Shown in pieces: positions 2,320 through 32,823 of a stretch of DNA of 35,797 nt. The notes below the pieces were generated by a model. That model worked only from the letters and a program-made list of their open reading frames with translations, was not told the DNA's origin and made no database searches. Numbering within the stretch: the stretch's first letter is position 1; every line of letters starts with the position of its first letter. This DNA comes from Pseudomonadota bacterium (GTDB lineage Bacteria; Pseudomonadota; Gammaproteobacteria; Burkholderiales; Thiobacillaceae). The stretch covers positions 1 through 35,797 of the forward strand of contig JAUXXW010000100.1 in the NCBI GenBank assembly GCA_030684775.1, written 5' to 3'. The translations under genes were made by a program, and so were the position numbers.

Positions 2320-2441
2320 TGCCGTGAACCGGGCCACAGCGGTCGGCAATCCGCTTGCGCCGGGTGGCCGATATTCATAGCATTCGGCCCCGATGCATCA
2401 ACGCAAATGGGCCGCTTGTTCATGCCCCAGCCCACCCCCCC

Positions 2442-3233
2442 ATGTCCCAACCGTTGCTCGATCTGCAAGATGTGGTGTTCCGCTGGCCGGGACAGGCGGC
2501 CGCCTGCCTGGACATCGCGAACTTCCAGGTGGCGGCGGATGAGCATGTGTTCATCCACGGCGAAAGCGGCAGCGGCAAGAGCACGCTGCTCAATCTGATC
2601 GCCGGGGTGCTGCTGCCGCAACAGGGCCGGCTGACCGCGCTCGGGCAGCCTCTGCCGGCCCTGTCCGCCGCCGCGCGCGACCGCTTCCGGGTGGACCACG
2701 TCGGCCTGATCTTTCAGCAGTTCAACCTGATTCCCTATCTGTCGGTGCTGGATAACGTGCTGCTGCCCTGCCGTTTTTCCCGGCGCCGGCGCGAGCGGGC
2801 GGGGGACATGAAGCAGGCCGCCGCGACCTTGCTGAATCACCTCGGCCTGGGCGAAGACCTCTGGCAACGCCCAGCCACGCAACTTTCCGTGGGCCAGCAG
2901 CAACGGGTGGCGGCGGCGCGCGCCTTGATCGGCCAGCCGGAAATCGTCATCGCCGACGAGCCCACTTCGGCGCTCGATGCCGCCCGCCAGGAAGCGTTTC
3001 TCGGCCTGTTGCGCCAGGAATGCGCGGCGGCCAGGGCGGCATTGCTGTTCGTCAGCCACGACCAACGCCTGGCCGAGGGCTTCGGCCGCCGCGTGGATAT
3101 GGCGGAGCTAAACCGGGCGGCGGGGCGGGGTGGGGATGAGGGAACAGCGGGGGAAGCAGCGGGCGCGGCTGTGCCGGCGTCGCTCCCTCACCCCCGGCCC
3201 CTCTCCCGGGGGGAGAGGGGAGACCAAGCATGA
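2442..3233 (+). CDS. ABC transporter ATP-binding protein, MacB/LolD type
   Basis: A 263-residue ABC ATPase. Walker A is GESGSGKST near residue 41, the signature is LSVGQQQR near 147, Walker B is IVIADEPTSALD near 167, and the switch His is in FVSHDQR near 203. This type pairs with FtsX-like permeases that drive conformational work rather than classical import. ATG 2442 (MSQPLLDL) is chosen because the domain begins there; an in-frame ATG at 2355 would add 29 residues of no recognised kind. The TGA overlaps the permease ATG (ATGA at 3230-3233), implying translational coupling. The last 25 or so residues are unusual: they are Gly/Ala/Arg-rich and partly encoded by a family B palindrome (3183-3222). 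Similar ATPase-permease-DUF3299 sets occur in zinc-regulated loci of Vibrio and Pseudomonas. Confidence 0.9.
   Translation: MSQPLLDLQDVVFRWPGQAAACLDIANFQVAADEHVFIHGESGSGKSTLLNLIAGVLLPQQGRLTALGQPLPALSAAARDRFRVDHVGLIFQQFNLIPYLSVLDNVLLPCRFSRRRRERAGDMKQAAATLLNHLGLGEDLWQRPATQLSVGQQQRVAAARALIGQPEIVIADEPTSALDAARQEAFLGLLRQECAAARAALLFVSHDQRLAEGFGRRVDMAELNRAAGRGGDEGTAGEAAGAAVPASLPHPRPLSRGERGDQA
3183..3222. repeat. Palindromic repeat, family B (B1), inside the ABC ATPase 3' end
   Basis: The hairpin CCCCTCTCCC (3198-3207) pairs with GGGAGAGGGG (3211-3220), preceded by CTCACCCCCGG. The same 'CTCACCCCCGGCCCCTCTCCC'-type sequence is found in hemF at 15255-15297. Here it codes for the last residues of the ATPase and reads through in frame to the overlapping stop. 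Confidence 0.8.
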
Positions 3234-4510: not shown

Positions 4511-4912
4511 GTGGAAAAGGGGCATCTCGTAGGTTGGGCAGCGGAGTCGTTGTCCGCTTTAGCGGCTTACAAATCCGGCGTGCCCCTTGCGGGTGCAAAG
4601 CGCGGCGTGCCCAACATGGCAGCGGTTTGTTGGGTACGCTTCGCTTTGCCCAACCTACTGGTGCTGTTTCTCCTGTTCGCCCAGGCCGGCGCGCTGGCGC
4701 ATGGCGTCAAACACGTCCCGGATCAATTCCACGGCGATGAGCCGGCCTGCGATCTATGCCTGGCCTACGCGCCGATGGGTGCGGGCGTGGCCAGCACGCC
4801 TTTGCCGTGGGTTGCACCCACGGCAACCATTTCCTTCGACGCGGCCGTTCCGGCGGCGTCACCCACGGGCTTCCGCCCCGGCTACCAGAGCCGCGCGCCA
4901 CCTGCCGCGTAG
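4511..4912 (+). CDS. Small exported CxxC protein (DUF2946-like) with repeat-derived N-terminus
   Basis: A small protein whose recognisable part is a hydrophobic signal segment (LLVLFLLFAQAGALAHG), an HGVKHVPDQFHGDE stretch, a CDLCLAY motif and a tail ending YQSRAPPAA, all typical of small DUF2946-like proteins near metal-uptake genes. The His residues and CxxC suggest periplasmic metal binding (inference). The GTG at 4511 lies 3 bp after the permease stop and would be translationally coupled, but then about 43 residues come from a family A repeat (4529-4658) inserted before the signal segment. ATG 4616, itself inside the repeat, would give a 98-residue protein with a neat signal peptide but lacks a ribosome-binding site. 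The TAG stop falls in the first bases of a family G repeat. Confidence 0.6.
   Translation: MEKGHLVGWAAESLSALAAYKSGVPLAGAKRGVPNMAAVCWVRFALPNLLVLFLLFAQAGALAHGVKHVPDQFHGDEPACDLCLAYAPMGAGVASTPLPWVAPTATISFDAAVPAASPTGFRPGYQSRAPPAA
4529..4658. repeat. Palindromic repeat, family A long form (copy A2)
   Basis: It starts GTAGGTTGGGCAGCGGAG and ends TTTGCCCAACCTAC. The long form carries about 55 extra bases in the left arm (including GTCGTTGTCCGCTTTAGCGG and GTGCCCCTTGCGGGTGCA). The same long form occurs at 10439-10568 and, inverted and truncated, at 20713-20800. This copy is open in the reading frame of the small CxxC gene. Confidence 0.9.
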
Positions 4913-6447: not shown

Positions 6448-6631
6448 CCCCCCTTTTCCAAAGGGGGGCAGGGGGTACCGCAGGGTATAAGCAGGGACTT
6501 GGCCGCCGTCTTTTGGCGGCTTAGTCCTTCGCTTAGGGGCTTTATCAGGGGCTTCATCAGATTTGGCGACGCTCGCCGCCGCGCAACCCATGCAGAAATC
6601 CCCCCCCAGCCCCCCTTTGGGAAAGGGGGGA
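6448..6631. repeat. Palindromic repeat, family C (C1), intergenic
   Basis: Two hairpins, CCCCCCTTTTCCAAAGGGGG (6448-6467, plus one G) and CCCCCCTTTGGGAAAGGGGG (6610-6629, plus one G), bracket a spacer. The spacer contains a GGGGGTACCGCAGGGTATAA block, GCTTCATCAGATTTGGCGAC and GCAGAAATCCCCCCC. The same blocks recur in C2-C5. Together with A3 this fills the gap between the porin-like gene and the ZnuA-like gene; no other feature was seen. Confidence 0.85.
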
Positions 6632-6652: not shown

Positions 6653-7549
6653 ATGCTCAACCGACTTGTATTAATCGCGCTGCTTCTGGCGGCGAACACC
6701 GCCCAGGCCGCCCTCAACGTGCTCGCCTGCGAGCCCGAGTGGGCGGCGCTCACCCGGGAACTGGCAGGCGATCTGGCGCGCGTCAGTAGCGCCACCACGG
6801 CGCGGCAGAACCCGCATCACATCGAGGCGCGGCCGTCGCTGATCGCCCGCGCCCGCAACGCCGACCTGCTGGTATGCACCGGCGCCGACCTGGAGATCGG
6901 CTGGTTGCCGCTGCTCACGCGGGAATCCGGCAACGCTCGCATCCAGCCGGGGCAGGCGGGGTATTTCGAGGCGGCGGCCCATGTTCGCCTGCTGGAGAAA
7001 ACCGGCATCGCCGACCGCGCCCAGGGCGACGTCCACCCTGGCGGCAATCCGCATCTGCACGCCGACCCGCGCAATCTTCCGGTCGTCGCCCAGGCTCTGG
7101 CACGCCGGCTGGCGGAGCTGGACCCGGCCAACGCCGCCCATTACGCCGCTCGCAATCAGGATTTCCAGTTGCGCATGAACGCGGCCATCGCCCGTTGGGA
7201 GAAGGACGCCGCGCCGCTGCGTGGCGTGCCGGTGGTGGTGCAGCACCGAAGCTGGAGCTATCTGGCCGACTGGCTGGGCCTGAAAGTGGTGGCGGACCTG
7301 GAGCCCAAGCCCGGTATCGAGCCTTCGGTGTCCTCGCTGGCCAGCCTGCTGCAAGGGCTGAAGGCGCGGCCGGCGCGGATGATCCTGCGCACGCCCTACC
7401 AGTCGCCCAAGCCCGCCGAATGGCTGGCCGAGCGCGCCGGCATCGACGCCGTGGAACTGCCCTACACGGTGGGCGGTTCGGCGCGGGCGACGGACCTGTT
7501 CGGCTTGTTCGACGACACCCTGGCGAAATTGAAAGGAGGTCTGAAATGA
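6653..7549 (+). CDS. ZnuA-like metal ABC transporter substrate-binding protein
   Basis: A 298-residue periplasmic cluster A-I (ZnuA/TroA-like) binding protein. The signal peptide is about 1-20 (ending ANTAQAA). Probable metal ligands are in 'NPHHIEARP' (near 53), 'GGNPHLHADPRN' (near 130) and 'VVQHRSWSYLADWLG' (near 196), the three His positions expected for zinc or manganese binders. A 'PKPGIEPS' segment follows, as in the family. There is no long His/Asp-rich loop of the kind seen in E. coli ZnuA. ATG 6653 is preceded by AAGGA; the upstream in-frame region belongs to a repeat. The ZnuB-like permease follows after an 87-bp gap holding a repeat. Zinc is the likely ligand but is not proven by sequence. 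Confidence 0.85.
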   Translation: MLNRLVLIALLLAANTAQAALNVLACEPEWAALTRELAGDLARVSSATTARQNPHHIEARPSLIARARNADLLVCTGADLEIGWLPLLTRESGNARIQPGQAGYFEAAAHVRLLEKTGIADRAQGDVHPGGNPHLHADPRNLPVVAQALARRLAELDPANAAHYAARNQDFQLRMNAAIARWEKDAAPLRGVPVVVQHRSWSYLADWLGLKVVADLEPKPGIEPSVSSLASLLQGLKARPARMILRTPYQSPKPAEWLAERAGIDAVELPYTVGGSARATDLFGLFDDTLAKLKGGLK

Positions 7550-8395: not shown

Positions 8396-8520
8396 ACATG
8401 GAAACCTTTGTGCCGTAGGTTGGGCAAAGCGAAGCGTGCCCAACGAACCGCCGCGATGTTGGGCACGCTTCGCTTTGCCCAACCTACGGCGCTTGTTCAA
8501 TCGATTGAGACATCCATGAA
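8368..8520. repeat. 29-bp direct duplication (8368-8396 and 8492-8520) flanking repeat A4
   Basis: CTTGTTCAATCGA followed by G/T and TGAGAC, four differing bases, and ATGAA occurs at both places (24 of 29 bases identical). Copy 1 keeps the ZnuB-like stop codon and a dead ATG; copy 2 keeps the working ATG of the DUF3299 gene. Between them lie 95 bp containing a family A hairpin. Confidence 0.8.
8415..8487. repeat. Palindromic repeat, family A short form (copy A4)
   Basis: Starts GTAGGTTGGGCAAAGCGAAG and ends CTTCGCTTTGCCCAACCTAC, loop GAACCGCCGCGATG. It separates the ZnuB-like permease from the DUF3299 gene. Confidence 0.92.
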
Positions 8521-9082
8521 ACAAACATTCACCGGCCTGCTTCTGGCCTTGTTGCTTGCCGCCCCCGCGCTGAGCGCCGACTACAAAGTGGGCGACCGCC
8601 TGCCCGAGGGCGCGAAAGCCAAATCCGCCTACAAGACCACGGACTGGGACGATCTGTTGCCCAAGGGATGGGACCCGATGGCCGCGTTCAAGGGCATCGA
8701 TCTGGCCAAGTTGGACGACGCCGACCCGCGCGCGGCGGATGCCCTGGCGCAAATGCGCCGCGCCTGGGACGCGGCGCCGGTCAACCCGGCGATGGACGGT
8801 CGCGACATCCGCATTCCCGGTTTCGTCGTCTCGCTCGATGGCGGCCCCAACGAGTTGCGCGAATTCCTGCTGGTGCCCTATTTCGGCGCCTGCATCCATG
8901 TACCGCCACCGCCCGCCAACCAGATCATCCACGTCATGCCGGACAAGCCGGTCAAGGGCGTGAAGAACATGGAGGCGGTATGGGTCAGCGGCAAACTGAC
9001 GATCGGCCACTCCGATACGGCGATGGGCAAATCCGGCTACCGGATACAGGCGCGGGAGGTGGTGAAGTACAAGGAGCGTTGA
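8516..9082 (+). CDS. DUF3299 exported protein of the metal-uptake locus
   Basis: A 188-residue protein with a signal peptide (about 1-20, ending PALSA). The body matches the DUF3299 pattern: 'GRDIRIPGFVVSLDG' near residue 100, 'REFLLVPYFGACIHVPPPP' near 117, and a C-terminal 'GYRIQAREVVKY'. The Cys in 'YFGACIHVPPPP' with its flanking His is a family hallmark. DUF3299 proteins occur next to MacB-type ABC genes in zinc-regulated clusters of Gammaproteobacteria; their biochemical role is unknown. The start lies in the second copy of a 29-bp duplication, and the ancestral start probably overlapped the ZnuB-like stop. Confidence 0.82.
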   Translation: MKQTFTGLLLALLLAAPALSADYKVGDRLPEGAKAKSAYKTTDWDDLLPKGWDPMAAFKGIDLAKLDDADPRAADALAQMRRAWDAAPVNPAMDGRDIRIPGFVVSLDGGPNELREFLLVPYFGACIHVPPPPANQIIHVMPDKPVKGVKNMEAVWVSGKLTIGHSDTAMGKSGYRIQAREVVKYKER

Positions 9083-9238: not shown

Positions 9239-10384
9239 CTATGGCAATAGCGCCCCCACCTGTTTCGCCAGCTCCGCCCGGCGGCCGGTTTCGCCTCCGG
9301 TCAAGGCGAAACCATCGAGGTTGCCGGCTTCGTTCTGGTGCAGGGCGACGATGCCGTTTTCGTTCTGCTCCACCCGCCAACTCCCCTCCGCACCCGGCGC
9401 CGGAGGCAGCACGGCGATCGGGTAGGCACTGGTTTTCACCATCACCGGCATCGCCGGGTAGCTCACCTGAATGTCCTCGCCGGCGAGGATGGCGGCGAGC
9501 GCGCGGGCCTGGAGCAACAAGGGCTGGACGAAGGGCAGTACATGGCCGGCCACTTCGGCGCAATCGCCGATCGCATAAATGTCCGCGACCCCGGTTTCCA
9601 GTTTCCGATTGACCACGATGCCGCGATTCACCGGGATACCGGCATCCCGCGCCAGTTGCGTGCGTGATCGCAGGCCGATGGCGGAGAGCACCATATCGGC
9701 TTCGATCCGGCTGCCATCGTCCAGGGTGAGGCGGTAACCACCGTCGCGGTGATCCACTCGTTTCGCCGTTTGGCCGAAGCGCCAGGCCACGCCCTGGCTC
9801 TCCAGGGTTTCCGCCAGCGCCCGGCCGGCCTCTTCGGGAATCAGGCGTTCCAGCGGCCAGGGGCCGAGGTGAACGACGCTCGCGGCATGGCCGCTGGCCG
9901 CCAGGTCGTTGGCGAATTCACAGCCGATCAGGCCACCGCCGAGGATGGCGACATGGCGTTTGCCTTCCAGCGCGGCGCGAAAGCGGGTGTAGTCATCGAG
10001 ATCGTTGACGCTGATTACGTCCTTGGCTGCGTCGCCGCCCAGACCGTGCGGGAAGGGGTCGGCGCCGAGGGCGAGCACCAGACGGCCGTAGGGAATTTCA
10101 CCGCCGGCGGTGCGTACCACCTTGTTGGCCGGGTCGATGGCCGCGACCCGGGTATGCGTGAGGATCGTGGCATTGAATTTGGCCGCCGCCTGTTCCGCTG
10201 TTTCCGAGGCCAGTTGCGCGGGCGTGCGCTTCTGGCTCAGGGCGTTGGACAGATTCGGCTTGCTGTAGACACGGCCATCGTCGGCGGTAATCAGCGTGAC
10301 CGGCGTACTCGTGTCGCGTTTGCGGAATTCACGCAGCAGACCGTAACCGGCCAGGCCGCTGCCGAGGATGACGATTGGGGACAT
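9239..10384 (-). CDS. FAD/NAD(P)-dependent oxidoreductase, rubredoxin reductase-like
   Basis: A 381-residue flavoprotein with an N-terminal FAD motif 'VILGSGLAGYG' (about 5-15), a second nucleotide motif 'VAILGGGLIGCEFAN' near 145 for NAD(P)H, and 'DIYAIGDCAEV' near 265 closing the FAD site. This order is that of rubredoxin/ferredoxin reductases of the AlkT/RubB/NorW kind. ATG 10384 is chosen because AGGAG stands about 7 nt upstream and the Rossmann motif starts at once. It is the last gene of a rubrerythrin-rubredoxin-reductase set on the minus strand, so it most likely passes NAD(P)H electrons to the rubredoxin. A long family A repeat lies between it and the rubredoxin gene. Confidence 0.87.
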   Translation of the reverse strand: MSPIVILGSGLAGYGLLREFRKRDTSTPVTLITADDGRVYSKPNLSNALSQKRTPAQLASETAEQAAAKFNATILTHTRVAAIDPANKVVRTAGGEIPYGRLVLALGADPFPHGLGGDAAKDVISVNDLDDYTRFRAALEGKRHVAILGGGLIGCEFANDLAASGHAASVVHLGPWPLERLIPEEAGRALAETLESQGVAWRFGQTAKRVDHRDGGYRLTLDDGSRIEADMVLSAIGLRSRTQLARDAGIPVNRGIVVNRKLETGVADIYAIGDCAEVAGHVLPFVQPLLLQARALAAILAGEDIQVSYPAMPVMVKTSAYPIAVLPPAPGAEGSWRVEQNENGIVALHQNEAGNLDGFALTGGETGRRAELAKQVGALLP

Positions 10385-10438: not shown

Positions 10439-10568
10439 GTAGGTTGGGCAGCGGAGTCGTTGTCCGCTTTAGCGGCTTACGAATCCGGCGTGCCCCTTGC
10501 GGGTGCAAAGCGAAGCGTGCCCAACGAACCGCGGCGATGTTGGGCACGCTTCGCTTTGCCCAACCTAC
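10439..10568. repeat. Palindromic repeat, family A long form (copy A5)
   Basis: Starts GTAGGTTGGGCAGCGGAG and ends GCTTTGCCCAACCTAC. It is nearly identical to A2 apart from the loop (GAACCGCGGCGATG). It is inserted between the rubredoxin and reductase genes of an otherwise compact operon. Confidence 0.92.
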
Positions 10569-10591
10569 GCGGCTCCTACGGGGGAGTTCAA

Positions 10592-14891: not shown

Positions 14892-15866
14892 TCAACCCGG
14901 AAACTCGCCCAGCCAGTCGCGCGGGCGCAGAAAGTCGCTATATAGGCGCGCTTCCTCGCTGCCCGGATCGGGCTTCCAGTCGTAGCGCCATTTCACGATG
15001 GGCGGCATGGACATCAGGATGGACTCGGTGCGGCCGCCGGATTGCAGGCCGAACAGGGTGCCGCGGTCGAACACCAGGTTGAATTCGACATAGCGGCCGC
15101 GCCGGTAGGCCTGGAAATCGCGCTCCCGTTCACCGTAGGGCAGATCACCGCGACGCTCGACAATGGGCAGATAGGCCGCCAGGAAGTGGTCGCCGACGCT
15201 CTCGATCAGGTTCAGACAGTTCTCGAACGCCTCGGCACCCGGCGCCGAGGCGTTCCCCTCACCCCCGGCCCCTCTCCCGCCCGCGGGCGAGGGGAGATCA
15301 CAGAGGTCATCGAAGAAGATGCCGCCGATGCCGCGCGGTTCGTTGCGGTGCTTGAGGTAGAAATACTCGTCGCACCACTTCTTGAAGCGCGGGTAGTACT
15401 CGGCGTCGAAGGGGTCGAGCGCGCGCTTGCACATGGCGTGGAAGTGCACGGCGTCTTCCTCGAAGCCGTAATAGGGCGTCAGGTCCATGCCGCCGCCGAA
15501 CCACCACACCGGTTCTTCGCCCGGTTTTTCCGCGACGAAGCAACGCACGTTCATGTGGGTGGTGGGCACGTAGGGATTGCGCGGGTGCATCACCAGCGAC
15601 ACGCCCATCGCTTCCCAGTGGCGACCGGCCAGTTCCGGGCGGTGGGCGCTGGCCGAGGGCGGCAGCTTGTCGCCGGTCACATGCGAGAAGTTGACGCCGC
15701 CGCGTTCGAGAAAATTGCCATCCTCGATCAAGCGGGTAAGGCCACCGCCACCGCCGGGCCGCTCCCAGGCATCGCTCCGGAACGGCTTGCCGTCGATCTG
15801 CTCCATGCGTTCGACGATGAGCTCCTGCAACTCCAGGAGGAATTCCTTGACCGGCTGCATGTTCAT
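14892..15866 (-). CDS. hemF: Oxygen-dependent coproporphyrinogen III oxidase, with in-frame repeat insertion
   Basis: HemF converts coproporphyrinogen III to protoporphyrinogen IX with O2 in the cytoplasm. Conserved stretches are '[17 protein letters not shown]', '[16 protein letters not shown]', '[18 protein letters not shown]' and '[20 protein letters not shown]'. Between 'GGIFFDDL' and '[20 protein letters not shown]' the protein carries about 20 additional residues (about 190-212), encoded by a family B palindrome and an adjacent hairpin (15229-15297). The frame stays open and all flanking motifs are intact, so the enzyme is probably functional with an extra loop. ATG 15866 (MNMQPVKEF) is preferred; ATG 15860 or GTG 15908 are alternatives, and none has a strong ribosome-binding site. 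Confidence 0.93.
15229..15297. repeat. Palindromic repeat, family B (B2) plus adjacent hairpin, inside hemF
   Basis: CCCCTCACCCCCGGCCCCTC, then TCCCGCCCGCGGGCGAGGGGAG, forms the family B hairpin at 15255-15297. A second hairpin, CGCCTCGGC facing GCCGAGGCG, abuts it at about 15229-15253. Both lie in frame within hemF and explain its extra residues. Confidence 0.8.
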
Positions 15867-20530: not shown

Positions 20531-20615
20531 GAGTTCAACGGTACGAGATCGAGGTGCCGCGCGCCAAAACAAAACCTGATTCGCAAACAGCCTCGAATAA
20601 AGCCTGGATTGAAGC

Positions 20616-20688
20616 GTGGGTTGGGCAAAGCGAAGCGTGCCCAATATGGCGACGGGTTGTTGGGCACGCTGCGCTTTGCCCAACCTAC
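20616..20688. repeat. Palindromic repeat, family A short form (copy A6)
   Basis: Starts GTGGGTTGGGCAAAGCGAAG (one change from GTAGG) and ends GCGCTTTGCCCAACCTAC. It is preceded by GATTGAAGC, resembling the GTTGAAGC in front of copy A9. Confidence 0.88.
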
Positions 20689-20712
20689 GCCATTACGGTA
20701 TTGGCTGTGGGG

Positions 20713-23819: not shown

Positions 23820-26516
23820 ATGGCATCGATGAATACACCCCACGCTCCGCTGTCCTCCGAGGCAGCGCAATCCGCGCCTTCGGGCGGCCGGGCGGCGCGG
23901 ATAAACAACCCCCACGCTTCGCTGCCCCCCGAGGGGGCGCAATCCGTGCCTTCGGGCGGCCGCGCGGCACGGATGAAACTGGTCCTGGTGGGTAACGGCA
24001 TGGCCGGGATGCGCACGCTGGAAGAGCTGCTCAAGTCGGCTCCCGATCTTTATGACATCACGGTGTTCGGCGACGAGCCGCACCCCAACTACAACCGCAT
24101 CATGTTGTCGCCGGTATTGGCCGGCGAGCAGACGGTGGAACAGATCATCCTGAACTCGCGTGACTGGTATGCCGAGAACGGTATCACCCTGCACACCGGC
24201 AAGAAGATCGTGAAGATCGACCGCAAGCGCCGCACGGTGGAAGCCGACGACGGCACCGTCGCCGCTTACGACCGCATGCTGCTGGCGACCGGCTCCAAGC
24301 CCTTCGTCCTGCCGGTGCCGGGCGCCGACCTGCCCGGCGTGGTCGGTTTCCGCGACATCGCCGACGTCGACGCGATGATCGACGCCTCCACCCACTACAA
24401 ACACGCGGTGGTGATCGGCGGCGGCCTGCTCGGCCTGGAAGCGGCGAACGGCTTGAAGCTGCGCGGCATGGAGGTTTCCGTGGTGCACATCGGCGACTGG
24501 CTGCTCGACCGGCAACTGGACGAACCGGCCGCGCGCCTGTTGCAGAAGAGCCTGGAAGAGAAAGGGCTGACGTTTTTGCTGAAGAAGCAGACCGCCGAGT
24601 TGCTTCCGGCGGCGGAAATCCCCCCTAACCCCCCTTTGACAAAGGGGGGGACTGACTCCCCCCTTTCCCAAAGGGGGGCGGGGGTACCGAAGGGTAGGGG
24701 CTTCATCAGGGATTTGTCGGCGCCCCGCGTTGGCGCCGTGAAATTCAAAGACGGCTCCGAAATCCCCGCCGACCTCGTGGTCATGGCCGTCGGCATCCGC
24801 CCCAACACCGCCCTGGCGGAATCCGCCGGCCTTTATTGCAACCGTGGCCTGGTGGTCAACGACACCATGCAGACCTATGACCCGCGCATCTATGCGGTGG
24901 GCGAATGCGTCAGCCATCGCGGCATCGCCTATGGCCTGGTCGCACCGCTGTTCGAACAGGCCAAGGTATGCGCCAACCATCTGGCGGAACATGGCGTGGC
25001 GCAGTACGGCGGTTCGATGACCTCGACCAAGCTGAAAGTGACCGGCATCGACCTGTTCTCCGCCGGCAACTTCATGGGCGGCAAGGGTCTTGAAGAAATC
25101 GTGTTCCAGGACGTCGGCCGTGGTTCCTACAAGAAACTGGTGCTCAAAGACAACAAACTGGCCGGCGCCGTGCTCTACGGCGACACACTCGATGGCACCT
25201 GGTACTTCGAGCTGATGCGCGACCACACCGACGTTTCCGACTTCCGCGACAAGCTGCTGTTCGGCCGCAACCACCTGGGCGACTCCGGCCATGGCGACGA
25301 AAAGGGCCGCATCATGGCGATGCCGGACAGCACGGAAATCTGTGGCTGCAACGGCGTGTGCAAGGGCGATATCGTCAAGGCCATCCACGAGAAGAAGTTG
25401 TTCACCCTGGACGAGGTGCGCGCCCACACCAAGGCCTCCGGCTCTTGCGGCTCCTGTACCGGCCTGGTGGAAACCATCCTGGCGGCGACTGTGGGTGGCG
25501 ACTACTCGGTCGCGCCGTCGAAGAAGCCTCTGTGCGGTTGCACCGAATACAGCCATGACGAAATCCGCTCGGCCATCGTCGACAACAATCTGAAATCCCT
25601 GCCGGAAACCCTGCGTTTCATGGACTGGAAGACGCCGGACGGCTGCGCCAAGTGCCGCCCCGCGCTCAACTACTACCTGCTCTGCGCCTGGCCGACCGAA
25701 TACCAGGACGATGCCCAGTCGCGTTACATCAACGAACGCGCCCACGGCAACATCCAGAAGGACGGCAGTTTCTCGGTGGTGCCGCGCATGTGGGGTGGCC
25801 TGACCAACCCGAAGGAACTTCGCGCCATCGCCGATGTGGCGGAGAAGTTCAACGTGCCGGAGATGAAAGTCACCGGCGGCCAGCGTATCGACCTGTTCGG
25901 GGTGAAGAAGGAAGACTTGCCGGCGATGTGGAAAGACTTGTCGGACGCTGGTTTTGTCTCCGGCCACGCCTACGGCAAAGCCATGCGCACGGTGAAAACC
26001 TGCGTCGGCAGCAAGTGGTGCCGCTTCGGCACCCAGGATTCCACCGGCCTGGGCGTCAAGCTGGAACAACTGACCTGGGGTTCCTGGATGCCGCACAAAT
26101 ACAAGCTGGCGGTGTCGGGTTGTCCAAGGAATTGCGCCGAGGCCACCATCAAGGACTTCGGCGTGGTCTGTGTGGATTCCGGCTACGAACTGCATATCGG
26201 CGGCAACGGCGGCATCAAGGTGCGCGTCACCGACCTGCTCACCAAGGTGGAAAGCGAGGAACAGGTGCTGGAATTCGCCGGCGCTTTCGCTCAGCTCTAC
26301 CGCGAAGAAGCCCACTACCTGGAACGCACCGCGCCCTGGGTGGAACGGGTCGGCCTGGCACACATCAAGGCCAGGTTGGTGGAGGACGAAGCCAATCGCA
26401 AATTGCTCGCCGAACGCTTCCTGATTTCCCAGCAGCCCGCGCAGGTGGACCCCTGGAAGGCGCGCGCCGAGGGTGAGCAGAAGCATGAGTTCACGCCACT
26501 GACGGCATTGGCATAA
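23820..26516 (+). CDS. nirB: Nitrite reductase [NAD(P)H] large subunit, with repeat-derived insertions
   Basis: NirB reduces nitrite to ammonium in the cytoplasm with NirD. An N-terminal FAD/NAD domain begins 'MKLVLVGNGMAGMRTLEEL' (ATG 23973). Two BFD-like [2Fe-2S] segments follow (CGCNGVCKG near 508 with CGSC near 543; CGCTEY near 572 with CAKC near 609). The siroheme/[4Fe-4S] domain has CVGSKWC near 728 and SGCPRNCAE near 766. ATG 23820 has the good site AAGGAAGAG upstream while ATG 23973 has none, so the protein probably carries a 51-residue extension made of two 72-bp tandem repeats. A family C repeat adds about 35 residues near 266-300, within the flavin domain. All catalytic motifs are intact. 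Total length is 898. Confidence 0.93.
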   Translation: MASMNTPHAPLSSEAAQSAPSGGRAARINNPHASLPPEGAQSVPSGGRAARMKLVLVGNGMAGMRTLEELLKSAPDLYDITVFGDEPHPNYNRIMLSPVLAGEQTVEQIILNSRDWYAENGITLHTGKKIVKIDRKRRTVEADDGTVAAYDRMLLATGSKPFVLPVPGADLPGVVGFRDIADVDAMIDASTHYKHAVVIGGGLLGLEAANGLKLRGMEVSVVHIGDWLLDRQLDEPAARLLQKSLEEKGLTFLLKKQTAELLPAAEIPPNPPLTKGGTDSPLSQRGAGVPKGRGFIRDLSAPRVGAVKFKDGSEIPADLVVMAVGIRPNTALAESAGLYCNRGLVVNDTMQTYDPRIYAVGECVSHRGIAYGLVAPLFEQAKVCANHLAEHGVAQYGGSMTSTKLKVTGIDLFSAGNFMGGKGLEEIVFQDVGRGSYKKLVLKDNKLAGAVLYGDTLDGTWYFELMRDHTDVSDFRDKLLFGRNHLGDSGHGDEKGRIMAMPDSTEICGCNGVCKGDIVKAIHEKKLFTLDEVRAHTKASGSCGSCTGLVETILAATVGGDYSVAPSKKPLCGCTEYSHDEIRSAIVDNNLKSLPETLRFMDWKTPDGCAKCRPALNYYLLCAWPTEYQDDAQSRYINERAHGNIQKDGSFSVVPRMWGGLTNPKELRAIADVAEKFNVPEMKVTGGQRIDLFGVKKEDLPAMWKDLSDAGFVSGHAYGKAMRTVKTCVGSKWCRFGTQDSTGLGVKLEQLTWGSWMPHKYKLAVSGCPRNCAEATIKDFGVVCVDSGYELHIGGNGGIKVRVTDLLTKVESEEQVLEFAGAFAQLYREEAHYLERTAPWVERVGLAHIKARLVEDEANRKLLAERFLISQQPAQVDPWKARAEGEQKHEFTPLTALA
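23838..23977. repeat. Two tandem 72-bp repeat units at the nirB 5' end
   Basis: CCCCACGCT...GGCGCGGATAAA (from 23838) and CCCCACGCT...GGCACGGATGAA (from 23910) are two diverged copies with a 72-bp period. Both contain the GCGCAATCC and GCCTTCGGGCGGCCG blocks. The period is a multiple of three, so both are open in the nirB frame and encode two related 24-residue segments ending GGRAAR. Confidence 0.85.
24615..24720. repeat. Palindromic repeat, family C (C3), in frame inside nirB
   Basis: GAAATCCCCCC leads to the hairpin CCCCCCTTTGACAAAGGGGG (24629-24648, plus G), then GACTGACT, the hairpin CCCCCCTTTCCCAAAGGGGG (24658-24677, plus G), then GGGGGTACCGAAGGGTAGGG and CTTCATCAGGGATTTGTCGG. Compared with C5 the two halves are in swapped order. 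It encodes the peptides PPNPPLTKGG and SPLSQRG. Confidence 0.9.
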
Positions 26517-26528
26517 CGGCAAATCCGC

Positions 26529-26615
26529 GTAGGTCGGGTTAGGCGCGGGGGTTTGCGCCGTAACCCGACATTCCACCGCGTCGGGTTACGCGATAAAGCC
26601 GCTAACCCGACCTAC
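26529..26615. repeat. Palindromic repeat, family D, between nirB and nirD
   Basis: Starts GTAGGTCGGGTTAGGCGCG and ends GCTAACCCGACCTAC, with internal GTAACCCGAC and GTCGGGTTAC that can form an inner hairpin. It occupies almost the whole nirB-nirD spacer. Confidence 0.88.
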
Positions 26616-26629
26616 ACAAAGGAACGAAC

Positions 26630-26959
26630 ATGAACGAAAACTGGCTCGAAATCGGCCACCTCGAAGACATCCCCCGCCAGGGCGCCCGCGTCGTCAAGAC
26701 CACGGCCGGCGAGATCGCGGTGTTCCGCACCGTCGATGACGAGGTGTTTGCCTTGCGCGACAAATGCCCGCACAAGGGCGGCCCGCTGTCGCAGGGCATC
26801 GTCCACGGCAGACGCGTGGCCTGCCCGCTGCATGACTGGAAGATCAACCTCGACACCGGCCTCGCCGTCGCCCCCGATGTCGGCTGCGCCGCGCGCTATC
26901 CGGTGCGGGTGGTGGATGGCCAGGTCAGCCTGTCGCTGGTACCTGGGGAAAGCGGCTAG
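26630..26959 (+). CDS. nirD: Nitrite reductase [NAD(P)H] small subunit, Rieske-type
   Basis: A 109-residue Rieske-fold protein. The cluster motifs are 'CPHKGGPLSQG' near 46 and 'CPLHDWKI' near 64, the C-x-H and C-x2-H pairs of a [2Fe-2S] Rieske site. NirD partners NirB in cytoplasmic nitrite reduction to ammonium. Many enteric NirD proteins have lost the cluster ligands; here they are all present. A clear AAAGGAA precedes the ATG. A hairpin terminator lies about 55 bp after the stop. Confidence 0.94.
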   Translation: MNENWLEIGHLEDIPRQGARVVKTTAGEIAVFRTVDDEVFALRDKCPHKGGPLSQGIVHGRRVACPLHDWKINLDTGLAVAPDVGCAARYPVRVVDGQVSLSLVPGESG

Positions 26960-27013
26960 TACGTTCGGATTACCCCTTTTCCTCGCACGTCGACGCGTGA
27001 ATGCCGCGCGCCT

Positions 27014-27052
27014 AGCCGCCATGCCCACTCCGGGCTGGCGGCTTTATGCTTT
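27014..27052 (+). terminator. Intrinsic terminator after nirBD
   Basis: AGCCGCCA pairs with TGGCGGCT, with an inner GCCC/GGGC stem, followed by TTATGCTTT. The hairpin is strong; the T tract is interrupted. Confidence 0.7.
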
Positions 27053-27196
27053 CTGGCCGGATCTCGCCTCCAGGGCTCGGCAATATTAGCCATCCCTTGT
27101 TGATTGCCCCCTTCTCTTACAGCAGCATCCCTACATGAGGACAAGCAAATCCTCATCTCTTGGCTGACCAAGATGTGCCATTTTCTGGAGGAGTTC

Positions 27197-27499
27197 ATGA
27201 ATAAAGCATTTCTGTTGTGTGGATTACTTGCAGTCGCCCAAGGGGCAATCGCCTCGACGGACGGCGTCGACAAGACGGTTCGTTTCATGGCGGCCAACTG
27301 CGCCTATTGCCACGGCCCGGACGGCAGGAGCACCAGCGCCATCCCCAGCCTGGCGGGGATGCACAAGACCCGCTTCGTCGGCAGCATGAAGGCGATGAAA
27401 GCCGGCACGCAGGCGTCCCTGGTGATGTACCAGATCGCCGCCGGCTATAGCGATGCCGAGATCGATGCCATGGGCGATTGGTTCGCCAATAACAAATAA
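27197..27499 (+). CDS. fccA: Cytochrome c subunit of flavocytochrome c sulfide dehydrogenase
   Basis: A 100-residue periplasmic monoheme cytochrome. The signal peptide is about 1-19 (ending GAIAS), the heme motif is CAYCH near 34 within 'ANCAYCHGPDGRSTSAIPSL', and the probable Met ligand is in 'MKAMKAGTQASL'. The C-terminal 'YSDAEIDAMGDWFANNK' is typical of the FccA/SoxE-like class. It is 23 bp before the flavoprotein gene, with which it forms the sulfide-oxidising heterodimer that passes electrons into the periplasmic cytochrome pool. ATG 27197 follows GGAGGAG closely. It could alternatively be a generic c4-half cytochrome, but the neighbour supports FccA. Confidence 0.87.
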   Translation: MNKAFLLCGLLAVAQGAIASTDGVDKTVRFMAANCAYCHGPDGRSTSAIPSLAGMHKTRFVGSMKAMKAGTQASLVMYQIAAGYSDAEIDAMGDWFANNK

Positions 27500-27522
27500 C
27501 CGGCGCCCCAAGGAGACTAGCC

Positions 27523-28833
27523 ATGACATTGAATCGACGTGATTTTCTTAAATTTTCCGCCGGTGCCGCGAGCGCCGTCGGCCTGAGCACGCTGGCGGCT
27601 TGCGCCGGAACCGGCCCCGCTGTCGGCGGCGCGCGCCCCAAGGTGGTGGTGGTCGGTGCCGGTTTCGGCGGCGCCACCTGCGCCAAATACCTGAAGCTAT
27701 GGGACCCCAATATCGAGGTGACCCTGATCGAGGCCAACGAGAAGTTCGTCTCCTGCCCGCTGTCCAATCTGGTGATCGGCGGCGCCCGCAACATCGAAGA
27801 CCTGACTTTCTCTTATGACGGCCTGAAGAAGCTGGTGGACAACTTCGTCCACGACACCGTGGTCGGCATCGACGCCACCGCGCGCACGCTGCGCACCGCC
27901 TCCGGGCGCAATTTCAGCTATGACCGCCTGGTGCTTTCCGGCGGCATCGAGCTGCAATACGACAAGATCGAAGGCTACGACGCCGAGGCGCGCAAGACCG
28001 TCATGCACGGCTGGAAGGCCGGGCCGCAGACCGTCGCCCTGCGCCGCCAGCTCGAAGCCATGCCCGATGGCGGCGTCTTCGTCCTCGCCACCCCACCGAC
28101 GCCCTATCGCTGCCCGCCCGGGCCTTACGAGCGAGCTTGCCTGGTGGCGGACTACTTCAAGCAGCACAAACCCCGCTCCAAGGTCATCGTCCTGGACGCC
28201 AATGCCGACATCGTTTCCAAGAAAGGCCTGTTCATGGCCGCCTGGAAAAAGCATTACGGCTTCGGCACGCCGGACAGCCTGATCGACTACCGCCCAAGCA
28301 GCAAGGCGCTGAAGGTCAACGCGGCGACCAAGACCATTTCCCTGGAATTCGACGACATCAAGGGCGATGTCATCAACGTGATCCCGCCGATGCGCGCGGC
28401 CAAATTGACCGAACTGGTCGGCGCCCGCCCGGCCGAGGGCAAGCAGGCCTGGTGCCCGGTGGATTTCCGCAGCTACGAATCGAAGACGGTGCCGAACGTG
28501 CACATCCTGGGCGACTCCGCCGAGTCGAACATGCCCAAGGCGGGCGCGGTGGCCAACAACACCGGCAAGATGTGCGCCGCCGCCCTGGTGGAGTTGTTGA
28601 ACGGCAGGCCGCTGGTGATCGCTCCGGTCATCACCAACACCTGCTTCTCGGCCACCTCGGGCACCACGGCCATGCATGTGGCCATGGTTTTCCGTGCCGA
28701 CCAGGATTTCAAGATGGTTTCCCAGCCGCTGCCCGACAAGGGTATCTCCAAGGTGGAAAGCGAGGCGGAAATGAAGTTCATGGACTCCTGGGGCAAAAAC
28801 ATCTGGGCCGACACCCTCAACCTGAAGATTTAA
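27523..28833 (+). CDS. fccB: Flavocytochrome c sulfide dehydrogenase, flavoprotein subunit
   Basis: A 436-residue periplasmic flavoprotein. It has a twin-arginine signal ('LNRRDFLKFSAGA' and a hydrophobic stretch to about residue 30), the FAD motif 'VVVVGAGFGGATCAKYL' near 42, 'FVSCPLSNLVIGG' near 75 with the Cys that in FccB homologues carries covalent FAD, and 'NTCFSATSG' near 371 with the conserved C-terminal Cys. The family oxidises sulfide to sulfur or polysulfide at the periplasmic face. AAGGAG precedes the ATG. It is unexpected to find this pair between nirBD and nasA; the gene is intact. Confidence 0.9.
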   Translation: MTLNRRDFLKFSAGAASAVGLSTLAACAGTGPAVGGARPKVVVVGAGFGGATCAKYLKLWDPNIEVTLIEANEKFVSCPLSNLVIGGARNIEDLTFSYDGLKKLVDNFVHDTVVGIDATARTLRTASGRNFSYDRLVLSGGIELQYDKIEGYDAEARKTVMHGWKAGPQTVALRRQLEAMPDGGVFVLATPPTPYRCPPGPYERACLVADYFKQHKPRSKVIVLDANADIVSKKGLFMAAWKKHYGFGTPDSLIDYRPSSKALKVNAATKTISLEFDDIKGDVINVIPPMRAAKLTELVGARPAEGKQAWCPVDFRSYESKTVPNVHILGDSAESNMPKAGAVANNTGKMCAAALVELLNGRPLVIAPVITNTCFSATSGTTAMHVAMVFRADQDFKMVSQPLPDKGISKVESEAEMKFMDSWGKNIWADTLNLKI

Positions 28834-28978
28834 GCAGGCCAACCGTAACAGCCGGCACGGTGGACACACACGCCACCGTGTCGGCTGTCGCCCGATGCTC
28901 CGTAATCGGGCGGGAAACCGGCGGCAACTGTCGATACCCGGTTTTCCATGAACACCCGCAATGGCATGGTGCGCCGCC

Positions 28979-28993
28979 GCACCGCTCTGGTGC
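28979..28993. promoter_or_regulatory. NtrC-type binding site upstream of nasA
   Basis: GCAC-CGCTCTG-GTGC is the same GCAC-N7-GTGC dyad seen upstream of nirB. It lies about 185 bp upstream of the predicted nasA transcription start. The remaining 28834-29144 region shows no gene. Confidence 0.55.
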
Positions 28994-29144
28994 CATCCAC
29001 CGAACGGCCTTGAACCCGCTTGCGCCATGCAGCGGTGAACCCGCTCGAAGACAAGCCCGTGATGGCCTGTACCCCGTTGATTAGACAGGGTTTGCCAATG
29101 CAAGCCAGTACCCTCCCAGAGACTCTGCGTAACGGCTGAGGGCA

Positions 29145-29160
29145 TGGCATGGGAGTTGCT
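29145..29160 (+). promoter_or_regulatory. Sigma-54-like -24/-12 element at the nasA start
   Basis: TGGCAT-GGGAG-TTGCT matches the sigma-54 consensus with correct 12-bp GG-GC spacing. It would start RNA near 29171, only about 2 nt before ATG 29173, implying a leaderless message. Either that is so, or the match is fortuitous. Confidence 0.5.
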
Positions 29161-29172
29161 AATCCTCTCCCC

Positions 29173-32130
29173 ATGACTCAATCCACGATTCAAACCACCT
29201 GTCCCTACTGCGGCGTCGGCTGCGGCGTCCTGGTGAGTCGCGAAGACTCCCCCCTTTATCAAAGGGGGGTTGGGGGGGGATTTAGCGACGTTTGCGATTA
29301 CGCCGACCCTGGAGAAATCCCTGATGAAGCCCCTACCCTTCGGTACCCTAACCCCCCTTTTTTAAAGGGGGGGACTCGGTTCACTGTGCGCGGCGACCCC
29401 GAGCATCCCGCCAACTTCGGCCGCCTCTGTTCCAAGGGCGCGGCGCTGGCGGAGACTTTGAGCCTGGAGGATCGCCTGCTGCATCCGGAAATAAACGGCG
29501 AGCGCGTCACCTGGGACGCCGCGCTCGACAGCGTCGCGCAACGCTTCCAGCAAGTGATCGCCGAACACGGCCCAGATGCCGTGGCGTTCTATGTCTCCGG
29601 CCAGTTGCTTACGGAAGACTATTACGTCGCCAACAAGCTGATGAAGGGCTTCATCGGCAGCGGCAACATCGACACCAATTCGCGCCTGTGCATGTCCTCC
29701 GCCGTGGTCGGACACAAGCGCGCCTTCGGCAGCGACACCGTGCCCGGTTGCTACGAAGACCTGGAAATCGCCGACCTGGTGACCTTGGTCGGCTCCAACA
29801 CCGCCTGGGCGCATCCCGTGGTGTACCAGCGCATCGTCGCCGCGAAGCAGGCGCGGCCGCGCATGAAGATCGTGCTGATCGACCCGCGCCGCACCGCCAC
29901 GGCCGGGCTGTTGCAAACCCCGGCCGACCTGCACCTGGCGATCAAGCCGGGCGCGGATGCCTGGCTGTTCAACGGCCTGCTCAACCACCTGAGAAGGGAA
30001 GACGGCATCGACTGGAGCTATCTGGAACAGCATGTCGAAGGTTTCGGCGCCGCGCTGGAGGAAGTCGGCGGCCTGAGCATCACGAAAGTGGCGGCGCGTT
30101 GCGGCCTGGCCGAGGCCGATGTGGCCGAGTTCTACCGCCTGTTCACACAGACGCCGAAAAGCGTCACCGTTTTTTCCCAGGGTATCAACCAGTCTTCCTC
30201 CGGCGTCGATAAAGTTAACAGCGTCATTAACGTACACCTCGCCACTGGCCGGGTCGGCCTGCCCGGCGCCTCGCCGTTTTCCATCACCGGCCAGCCCAAC
30301 GCCATGGGCGGGCGCGAGGTGGGTGGCCTGGCCAATCAACTGGCTGCGCACATGGACATCGTGCCGGAGTGCATCGAGCGCGTCGGCCGTTTCTGGAACG
30401 CGCCCAACATCACCCATCGCCCCGGCCTCAAGGCGCTGGAATTGTTCGACGCCGTGCGTGACGGCCGCATCAAGGCGATCTGGATCATGGCCACCAACCC
30501 GGCGGTGAGCCTGCCGGAAGCGGATCGCGCCGTGGCCGCGCTGAAACAGTGCGAATTCGTCGTGGTTTCCGACAACACCCGCCATACCGATACCGCCCAG
30601 TTGGCGCACGTGCTGCTGCCCGCCGCCGCCTGGGGCGAGAAGGACGGCACGGTGACCAACTCGGAACGGCGCATTTCGCGGCAGCGCCCGTTTCTGCCGC
30701 TGCCCGGCGAAGCGCAACCGGACTGGTGGATCGTCAATGAAGTGGCGCGGCGCATGGGCCACGCGGAAGCGTTCGCGTTCGATGGCCCGGCGGCGATCTT
30801 CGCCGAACATGCCGCCTTGTCGGGCTTCGAGAACGGCGGCTCGCGCGACTTCGACATCTCAGCGCTGCTGGCTCCCCCCTGTGCCAACACGCCAGGCGCG
30901 TTAGGCGCTGCCGCCGGCACTGGCACCTTCCCCCTTTCTCAAAGGGGGATTGAGGTACCGAAGGGTAGGGGCTTCATCGGGGATTTAGCGACGGTTGCAC
31001 AGGCGCAGACCTTGGAGAAATCCCCCCCCAGCCCCCCTTTGAAAAAGGGGGGAGTTGGTTTCACGCAGGCCGCCTACGACACGCTCGAACCCGTGCAGTG
31101 GCCGATAGCCGCCAGCGGCAAAGGCACGCCGCGCCTGTTCGGCCAGGGCCGTTACTACACCGGCAACCACAAAGCCCGTCTGATCGCGCGGCCGCCACGC
31201 GGGCCGGCCACACCGGTCAACGCCAGCCAGCCGTTCATCTTCAACACCGGCCGCGTGCGCGACCAGTGGCACAGCATGAGCCGCAGCGGCAAGACCGCGC
31301 GGCTGCTCTCCCATATCGACGAGCCCTATATCGAGATGCACCCCGCCGACATCCGCCGCGCGGAAGTCCGTCCCGGCGGCCTCGCGCGCGTTCGCAATGG
31401 GCGCGGCGAAATGCTGGCGCGGGTGGTGGAAAGCGCGGAACAGCGCTCCGGCTCGGTGTTCGCGCCAATCCACTGGAACGGCCAGAACTCCGCCAAGGCA
31501 CGGGTCGATGCCCTGGTGTACGCGGTCACCGACGAAATATCAGGCCAGCCCGAATTCAAGCACGCGCCGGTTTCGGTGGAACCCTATGCTGCTACCTGGT
31601 ACGGCTTCGTCATGGCGCGCGCGCCTATCGACTGCAACCAGGCCGGCTACTGGACGCGGGTGCGCTGCCGCGCCTGCTGGCGCCATGAATTGGCCGGCAC
31701 GGAAAGCGAATGCGACTGGCCCAGACGGCTACGCGAAAAGTTTGGCGCCGATGGCGACTGGATCGAACTGAAGGACGGCGGCGTCAGCCGCTACCGCGCC
31801 GCGCTGCTGCGCGATGGCCGCATCGAGATGGTCTGCTTCTTCGACCGCGATTTCGCCGCCCTGCCGCCGCGTCACTGGCTGGAAGGGCTGTTCGAGAAGG
31901 ACGCACTCAATGACGCCGAACGCGCCGCCCTGCTCATGGGCCGTCCCAGCCGTGACGTGCCGGATACCGGCCGCATCGTCTGTGCCTGCTTCGGCGTCGG
32001 CGAAAACGATCTGAAACAAGCGATTCGCCAGGGCGCGAATTCGGTGGAAGCGCTGGGCATCAAGTTGAAGGCCGGCAGCAACTGCGGTTCTTGCATTCCG
32101 GAACTGAGGAAATTGCTGGCGGCTGCCTGA
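29173..32130 (+). CDS. nasA: Assimilatory nitrate reductase catalytic subunit, with two in-frame repeat insertions
   Basis: A 985-residue molybdopterin (bis-MGD) nitrate reductase reducing nitrate to nitrite in the cytoplasm. The N-terminal [4Fe-4S] site uses C10, C13 and C17 (CPYCGVGC) and C86 (GRLCSKG). 'IDTNSRLCMSSAVVGHKRAF' carries the active-site region, 'LIDPRRTATAG' and 'TGRVRDQWHSMSRSGKTA' follow, and the C-terminus has a BFD-like [2Fe-2S] domain (CACFG near 938, CGSC near 971). Family C repeats add about 41 residues at 26-67, between the third and fourth cluster Cys, and about 42 or more at 586-627 before 'YDTLEPVQWP'. The frame remains open. ATG 29173 fits the family start; ATG 29149 would add eight residues. 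It supplies nitrite to NirBD. Confidence 0.94.
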   Translation: MTQSTIQTTCPYCGVGCGVLVSREDSPLYQRGVGGGFSDVCDYADPGEIPDEAPTLRYPNPPFLKGGTRFTVRGDPEHPANFGRLCSKGAALAETLSLEDRLLHPEINGERVTWDAALDSVAQRFQQVIAEHGPDAVAFYVSGQLLTEDYYVANKLMKGFIGSGNIDTNSRLCMSSAVVGHKRAFGSDTVPGCYEDLEIADLVTLVGSNTAWAHPVVYQRIVAAKQARPRMKIVLIDPRRTATAGLLQTPADLHLAIKPGADAWLFNGLLNHLRREDGIDWSYLEQHVEGFGAALEEVGGLSITKVAARCGLAEADVAEFYRLFTQTPKSVTVFSQGINQSSSGVDKVNSVINVHLATGRVGLPGASPFSITGQPNAMGGREVGGLANQLAAHMDIVPECIERVGRFWNAPNITHRPGLKALELFDAVRDGRIKAIWIMATNPAVSLPEADRAVAALKQCEFVVVSDNTRHTDTAQLAHVLLPAAAWGEKDGTVTNSERRISRQRPFLPLPGEAQPDWWIVNEVARRMGHAEAFAFDGPAAIFAEHAALSGFENGGSRDFDISALLAPPCANTPGALGAAAGTGTFPLSQRGIEVPKGRGFIGDLATVAQAQTLEKSPPSPPLKKGGVGFTQAAYDTLEPVQWPIAASGKGTPRLFGQGRYYTGNHKARLIARPPRGPATPVNASQPFIFNTGRVRDQWHSMSRSGKTARLLSHIDEPYIEMHPADIRRAEVRPGGLARVRNGRGEMLARVVESAEQRSGSVFAPIHWNGQNSAKARVDALVYAVTDEISGQPEFKHAPVSVEPYAATWYGFVMARAPIDCNQAGYWTRVRCRACWRHELAGTESECDWPRRLREKFGADGDWIELKDGGVSRYRAALLRDGRIEMVCFFDRDFAALPPRHWLEGLFEKDALNDAERAALLMGRPSRDVPDTGRIVCACFGVGENDLKQAIRQGANSVEALGIKLKAGSNCGSCIPELRKLLAAA
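29249..29373. repeat. Palindromic repeat, family C (C4), in frame inside nasA
   Basis: Left hairpin CCCCCCTTTATCAAAGGGGG plus G (29249-29269), then GATTTAGCGACGTTTGC, GGAGAAATCCCTGATGAAGC and CCCTACCCTTCGGTACC (the reverse complement of the GGTACCGAAGGG block of C3 and C5), and right hairpin CCCCCCTTTTTTAAAGGGGG plus G (29352-29372). It encodes SPLYQRG and NPPFLKGG. Confidence 0.9.
30930..31052. repeat. Palindromic repeat, family C (C5), in frame inside nasA
   Basis: Left hairpin CCCCCTTTCTCAAAGGGGG (30930-30948), then GGTACCGAAGGGTAGGGG, CTTCATCGGGGATTTAGCGA, GGAGAAATCCCCCCC and right hairpin CCCCCCTTTGAAAAAGGGGG plus G (31032-31052). It encodes FPLSQRG and PPLKKGG, the same frame as C3 and C4. 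Confidence 0.9.
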
Positions 32131-32600: not shown

Positions 32601-32604
32601 ACTC

Positions 32605-32677
32605 GTAGGTTGGGCAAAGCGCAGCGTGCCCAACGAACCGCCGCCATGTTGGGCACGCTGCGCTTTGCCCAACCTAC
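32605..32677. repeat. Palindromic repeat, family A short form (copy A8)
   Basis: Starts GTAGGTTGGGCAAAGCGCAG and ends CTGCGCTTTGCCCAACCTAC, loop GAACCGCCGCCATG. It sits between the molybdoenzyme fragment and the toxin-antitoxin remnant. The remaining bases 32678-32823 hold nothing recognised. Confidence 0.92.
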
Positions 32678-32823
32678 GTCTTCTGACCCTATCCAGAGGC
32701 CATGATGCAAGTGCGAGCGCCGTTACCAAGCGGCGCCGTTTGACGAAATCAGGGGCTTATTGATTCCATGCGCGGTGGTGGCCGGTTGCTTCTGTGGCGG
32801 CACCCCATCCCTGCTTTCCTCAT

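Follow-up and report, generated by a model that had tools for sequence, protein, structure and literature searches.

How can conserved enzymes take up copies of a dispersed palindrome and keep their reading frames, and why do the copies lie where they do? The question is raised by a 35,797-nt stretch of DNA (the window) from a Pseudomonadota bacterium of the Thiobacillaceae (assembly GCA_030684775.1, contig JAUXXW010000100.1, positions 1–35,797, forward strand), in which we identified five copies of an element, family C, built on the palindrome CCCCCTTTNNNAAAGGGGG: one in nirB, two in nasA and two between genes. With up to two mismatches the palindrome has 13 matches in the window, whereas 100 shuffles gave 0.01 on average. 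We conclude that these inserts are very probably passengers resembling repetitive extragenic palindromes (REPs) or miniature inverted-repeat transposable elements (MITEs), purged from genes save where a loop tolerates a copy that is open and in register, and that such loops are colonized repeatedly.

The nirB open reading frame (ORF; 23820..26516, forward strand) matches the nitrite reductase large subunit model TIGR02374 in two stretches (936 bits), and the nasA ORF (29149..32130, forward strand) encodes a NasA-type nitrate reductase with a C-terminal BFD domain (PF00384, PF04879, PF01568, PF04324). No NCBIfam model reached its cut-off against the latter, so the name NasA rests on the domains, the relatives and the adjoining nirB. 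Both ORFs are stop-free throughout, inserts included, and on either side of the inserts both NirB and NasA (the latter by its molybdopterin, Fe4S4 and BFD domains) are matched by family models, in agreement with an earlier reading of the letters alone (the original prediction) that the three copies are open in their hosts. The nearest named NasA loci belong to metagenome-assembled genomes labelled Hydrogenophilales, Tepidiphilus and Thiobacillus, and from these labels the organism is probably a betaproteobacterium, as had been supposed.

The in-gene window copies measure 100–127 bp. C3 (24616..24715, forward strand; exact palindromes at 24630 and 24659) forms an insert at about residues 264–298 of NirB. 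C4 (29247..29373, forward strand; 29250 and 29353) supplies residues 33–74 of NasA, in a turn that joins two strands of the Fe4S4 domain, and C5 (30930..31052, forward strand; 30930 and 31033) lies in a variable NasA linker, at about residues 576–638 if flanking non-element residues are counted in. The other two copies, to which no strand is assigned, confirm that the element also exists outside genes: C1 (6446..6632; exact palindromes at 6449 and 6611) stands between an ORF ending at 6388 and an ATG at 6653, and C2 (9092..9191; 9095 and 9170) stands between convergent ORFs, 10 nt past the one ending at 9082 and before a minus-strand ORF that ends at 9239. A half copy of a separate hairpin, family A, directly precedes C1 (6403–6443). 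C1, C2, C4 and C5 have a palindrome at both ends in an inverted arrangement, like the terminal inverted repeats of a MITE; C3 is arranged otherwise, its two palindromes being nearly back to back, unlike those of C4 and C5. C4 and C5 lie in opposite orientations, the 24-nt GTACCGAAGGGTAGGGGCTTCATC block being on the right and reversed in C4 and on the left in C5. The peptides of C3, C4 and C5 are alike (PLxQRG/PPxKGG), as the original prediction had noticed.

Relatives with empty sites identify these segments as insertions. We compared the genome of the window (G000, a 3.85-Mb draft of 227 contigs) with genomes of the same genus, which carry the other G-numbers. The alignments proposed for NirB and NasA found the C3 site empty in 10 of 20 same-genus NirB loci (144–147 nt between motifs; G009 is slightly longer and ambiguous). 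Among 13 NasA loci, the C4 site has its base length in 10, family C in two (G000, G016) and a 10-residue insert in G007, and the C5 site holds family C in three (G000, G016, G005). In MetH, the site is empty in 9 of 16 readable loci (17 examined, one unreadable). The window itself also holds an in-frame insert of an unrelated palindromic family in hemF (15234..15296, minus strand; coproporphyrinogen oxidase, NF003727); among 21 same-genus loci this HemF site is empty in 15 and holds the GC-rich family B (SPSPxGG) in six.

The genome-wide search suggested with the original prediction showed family C to be dispersed, with 356 palindromes in G000 at no more than one mismatch (305 exact) against none in a reversed control. 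Exact palindromes number 494 in G034 and 223 in G016. In a sample of the class they occur in 27 of 274 genomes, own genome included, with the highest counts concentrated in a few (305 in our own, then 164, 71 and 50). We sampled 65 clusters in G000, comprising a contig-ordered set (29 clusters, contigs C1–C43), loci similar to C5 and the window; only the contig-ordered part is free of choice by similarity to C5 or the window. Six clusters at contig edges were not judged, and 14 of the 59 classifiable ones lie in frame within one ORF, on coding calls by a codon-score heuristic that would miss pseudogenes with weak coding signal. The hosts are NirB, NasA (twice), CobT, Mfd, an oligopeptide-permease-like protein, a dipeptide-type ABC ATPase, CobB, Pgl, BioF, NifJ, MetH and two ORFs without an NCBIfam match. 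In the contig-ordered set, 7 of 29 clusters lie in genes, a depletion (p = 2e-14) given an assumed 87% coding fraction. Another 42 clusters from G034 and G016 yielded six in-frame cases, including a 109-residue ORF that is doubtful, with one edge cluster unjudged. No clear case of a disrupted gene was found by the heuristic among the 65 clusters of G000 and the 42 of G034 and G016. The BioF insert (L088, G000 C221:3647-3772) lies shortly before the segment TLGKAAGVSGA, which we take to be the carrier of the cofactor lysine.

The insert sites look like linkers and loops. In an AlphaFold2 model of NasA built with 52 relatives (mean predicted local distance difference test (pLDDT) 82.1, predicted template modelling score 0.86), pLDDT falls below 50 at residues 35–73 and 579–635, corresponding to C4 and C5, and also at 1–10, 381–401 and 708–712; C4 is flanked by predicted strands at 26–32 and 77–82. 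The MetH insert falls between two stretches that match a solved structure (17–927 and 972–1274). In NifJ, the insert of family B maps between residues 382 and 384 of a solved pyruvate:ferredoxin oxidoreductase; that of family C lies in a stretch that aligns with gaps.

The same narrow positions are shared by unrelated families. At the NirB site we found family C in G000, G005 and G007, family B in G016, G034, G004 and G015, a GTAG-type repeat in G033, where the insert carries GTAGGAGCGGGC, and a shorter relative of this repeat in G010. The MetH site holds family C in four loci and family B in three, and the second NifJ site is filled in all 20 loci by C, B and at least two further families. 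In Mfd, the first site has B in G000, G034 and G014, a different family in G016 and yet others in G010 and G011, and the second has C in five loci (plus a decayed likeness in G007) and B in three. In all, two to four blast-supported families occupy one narrow position at five sites in four enzymes. Dispersal was judged by blastn against fetched loci only, with same-gene loci excluded and overlapping fetched stretches counted as separate loci. On that count the GTAG-type inserts match 4–5 other-gene loci, the further NifJ families 2–18, and the Mfd families of G016 and G010 match 20 and 4, respectively; C and B inserts generally match many more, with the exceptions of the B insert of G033 MetH (5) and the short G007 NifJ insert (3).

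Some inserts, judged by their peptides or their DNA, are composite. In G031, the NifJ insert consists of C then B; in G033, HemF (L287) has a 24-nt block, like the optional block of family C, inside a B palindrome; and in G014, the same TLKGIK block (about 21 nt) lies inside the B inserts at both Mfd sites (L268). NirB of G007 (L190) carries an in-frame array of C units in tandem, partly degenerate, which adds 67 residues. These mosaics and the array suggest that an occupied site goes on receiving elements. The 24-nt block nested in a B palindrome is found in C elements too, which gives it the look of an independent mini-element.

We then counted positions for inserts of at least eight residues, leaving out the first 20 core columns. 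All nine NirB inserts fall at one core position of 840, the ten MetH inserts at two of 1,234, the NasA inserts at four of 884 (two of them three columns apart) and the NifJ inserts at two of 1,212, the always-filled linker being counted mostly as core; Mfd inserts are confined to two stretches and HemF inserts to one position. Taking one event per family and site, admitting only families that match other loci, and omitting a second MetH site (G010, G011, G012) that the search motifs did not recover, we obtained 14 same-site pairs of different families, against a mean of 0.29 and a maximum of 6 in 100,000 simulations of uniform placement. A tree built from NirB, MetH and NifJ columns for 20 genomes (G001, G005 and G018 were dropped for too little sequence) requires at least 6, 5 and 5 changes at the sites in these three proteins, respectively; we assigned the states from peptides, scoring one, no and four loci as unknown, and among the NifJ states is a family (G002, G006) with no match at any other locus.

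A simple course of events would account for this distribution. The inserts would be copies of high-copy, REP/MITE-like palindromic elements, moved in the case of family C by a transposition machinery. Copies would land widely and be purged from genes, as the depletion, with its assumed coding fraction, suggests. Survival within a gene would need a copy that is open and in register, a length that restores the frame and a loop or linker able to carry 10–80 extra residues; the insert peptide itself would be a neutral passenger, and the enzymes would presumably work normally. Because tolerant loops are few, they would be colonized repeatedly, so that in related species a single site would hold unrelated families, one apparently taking the place of another, perhaps by insertion beside or into an old copy followed by in-frame deletion. 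We also think it probable, if with less assurance, that permissive loops in core enzymes act as standing docking sites at which unrelated palindrome families replace each other serially and in frame, giving a continuing, family-independent source of new disordered loops, and that the hot-spot alternative raised for Rickettsia japonica applies here.

The original prediction offered two explanations, selection for a tolerated frame or an element built to be translated, and the reading frames help to decide between them. The second would have a stop-free, soluble peptide (PLxQRG/PPxKGG) selected in one frame as a harmless entry to genes; it would explain the like peptides of C3–C5 and the somewhat greater openness of the in-gene copies. 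However, the 28 palindromes of the 14 in-gene copies fall in codon phases 0, 1 and 2 in numbers of 12, 10 and 6. The 'same reading frame' originally ascribed to the window copies thus stands only in the sense that all are open in the host frame: the palindromes of C4 and C5 read in phases 1 then 2 and those of C3 in 2 then 1, so that phase 0 does not occur among these three; among the other 11 in-gene copies every phase occurs. Equal use of frames together with widespread gene disruption had been named beforehand as what would count against the idea; all frames are indeed used, and no clear disruption was seen with the heuristic calls. In-gene dimers have 2.5 of six frames open, against 2.2 in first-order resampled sequence, and 40 other dimers have 1.9 against 2.3; the length from palindrome to palindrome is divisible by three in 6 of 14 in-gene copies, against 5 of 40 others (Fisher p = 0.024). 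This pattern fits survival of open, in-register copies and not a frame built into the element. Nor is the peptide kept: between G000 and G016, its closest relative on the tree, the second palindrome of C5 changes phase (PPLKKGG in G000, APLWERGE in G016), and the ratio of nonsynonymous to synonymous differences per site (pN/pS) is 0.94 for the C5 insert (59 codons) and 0.90 for C4 (47 codons), against 0.15 for the NasA host (493 codons). The two NasA inserts drift neutrally. In the permease, the insert has 13 nonsynonymous and 2 synonymous differences between these genomes (pN/pS 2.2 on 15 differences), and the host none and 34, respectively, over 207 codons (pN/pS 0.0). On phases, openness and drift we therefore rejected an element selected for translation, which we regard as highly improbable, and retained a tolerated frame.

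DNA-level hot spots, where insertion would be steered by a sequence or by palindromes already present and families would insert into one another, are a more serious rival, if still a rather unlikely one. They would account for the five shared positions in four enzymes and for the mosaics in NifJ, HemF and Mfd. Yet the sites also lie in linkers or in a turn between strands, where these proteins accept changes in length, and this explains the sharing if no more than about 3% of positions are tolerant, and no common target sequence was identified, no systematic search for one having been made. A single old insert per site, with families diverged beyond recognition, might be read from the second NifJ site, filled in every locus. 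Against it, C, B and GTAG-type inserts each match loci of other genes, and the host proteins of G000, G016 and G034 are 90–94% identical in search alignments, yet their inserts belong to different families at the NirB site, the NifJ site (G000 and G034) and the first Mfd site; common descent of all inserts at one site is accordingly disfavoured and seems very unlikely. The draft state of the genome, in 227 contigs, invites the suspicion of an assembly or binning artefact, to which we give almost no credence because in G016 both NasA sites, as well as the permease site, are filled by related but diverged copies.

Several results weigh against repeated colonization of tolerant loops by passengers. 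The low pLDDT at C4 and C5 is partly expected, because no aligned relative carries the inserts; the coding calls are heuristic only; and family assignment is our reading of peptides plus blastn against the fetched loci. For 7 of 20 NifJ and 4 of 12 second-site Mfd inserts, no match was found at another fetched gene locus. If about 3% of positions are tolerant, the sharing is only borderline (p = 0.05) and unremarkable, though tolerance is itself part of the reading. The MetH half-insert has a pN/pS of 0.34, not 1, between G016 and G034 (21 codons; host 0.10), so some inserts may be constrained. Finally, the first NifJ site is out of frame in G014 (L210), the sole exception seen, which reflects either a broken gene or an assembly error.

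The original prediction likened these copies to Rickettsia palindromic elements (RPEs), and as dispersed palindromes in frame in conserved enzymes they do resemble them. RPEs are described as 100–150 bp elements in frame in conserved, unrelated genes and also outside genes (PMC3767692, PMC10969869), and the review states that each encodes a conserved peptide (PMC10969869). The likeness, in-frame insertion in conserved genes without disruption (14 of 59 clusters for family C), is one of behaviour only. Here, several families without evident kinship are each dispersed, the genus is different, relatives have empty sites and all three phases are used; a conserved encoded peptide of the kind ascribed to RPEs is not what we observe, given the three phases and the NasA pN/pS values, though MetH stands lower. 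Family C is for this reason not classed as an RPE, and in our best reading the in-frame inserts work like RPEs but are a separate, multi-family case. The R. japonica paper reports orthologs that carry different RPE groups in or close to one locus, names hot spots or common origin as explanations and prefers common origin for RPE-4/6/7 (PMC3767692).

Small in-frame repeats are also reviewed for other bacteria (PMC2229807, PMC10969869). REPs of the GTAG and CGTC families, as small palindromes and dimers, are reported inside ORFs, Thauera included, and recB of two Xanthomonas is reported to be hit at about the same site (PMC3733652); here the sharing of sites involves several families and several genes across one genus. 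The foot of the window C copies is AAATCCCCC or CTCCCCCC, without a GTAG or CGTC tag, unlike family A and the G033 NirB insert, which carry GTAG. MITEs with ORFs (the Correia 107-bp form, ERIC, YPAL, RU-3) are small non-autonomous repeats fused in frame to genes, a likeness to family C that extends to the terminal inverted repeats of C1, C2, C4 and C5; most of these are said to be rich in A+T, to end in 5'-TA-3' and to have target duplications (PMC2229807), whereas the C palindromes are G+C-rich. We established no target-site duplication for family C: GACTC flanks C4 on both sides, none is evident at C5, and the hosts are too diverged for alignment by base. Nor did we establish a responsible transposase. 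A profile search of G000 gave six matches to Y1_Tnp, the domain of REP-associated tyrosine transposases, five of them over the cut-off; the exact C palindrome occurs at one of the six fetched loci and family A motifs at one, and no link between these transposases and the mobilization of family C was shown at those loci. Six insert peptides had no literature match in a collection covering few subscription papers, from which absence from print is not claimed, and among the matches listed for the palindrome letters all look unrelated by title.

Rickettsia is the best-known source of in-frame palindromes; in the genus studied here, the same protein positions are used by several families that are unrelated to one another. 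Unrelated families at common sites, together with drifting NasA peptides, separate insertion from retention, and the sites give natural maps of insertion tolerance in MetH, NifJ, NirB, NasA, Mfd and HemF. The question posed for R. japonica, hot spots or common descent, thereby becomes directly testable.

Other repeats were seen in the window. Family A, which starts GTAGGTTGGGC and is GTAG-type by sequence, occupies 113–196, 4585–4668, 8414–8497, 10495–10578, 20615–20698 and 32604–32687. An ABC-ATPase-like ORF, so named from its translation (2355–3233), has a C-terminus resembling a family B palindrome. Two tandem 72-nt repeats (23828–23971), 83% alike, stand at the N-terminal end of the nirB ORF, probably upstream of the true nirB start; similar repeats are present in G010 and G034.

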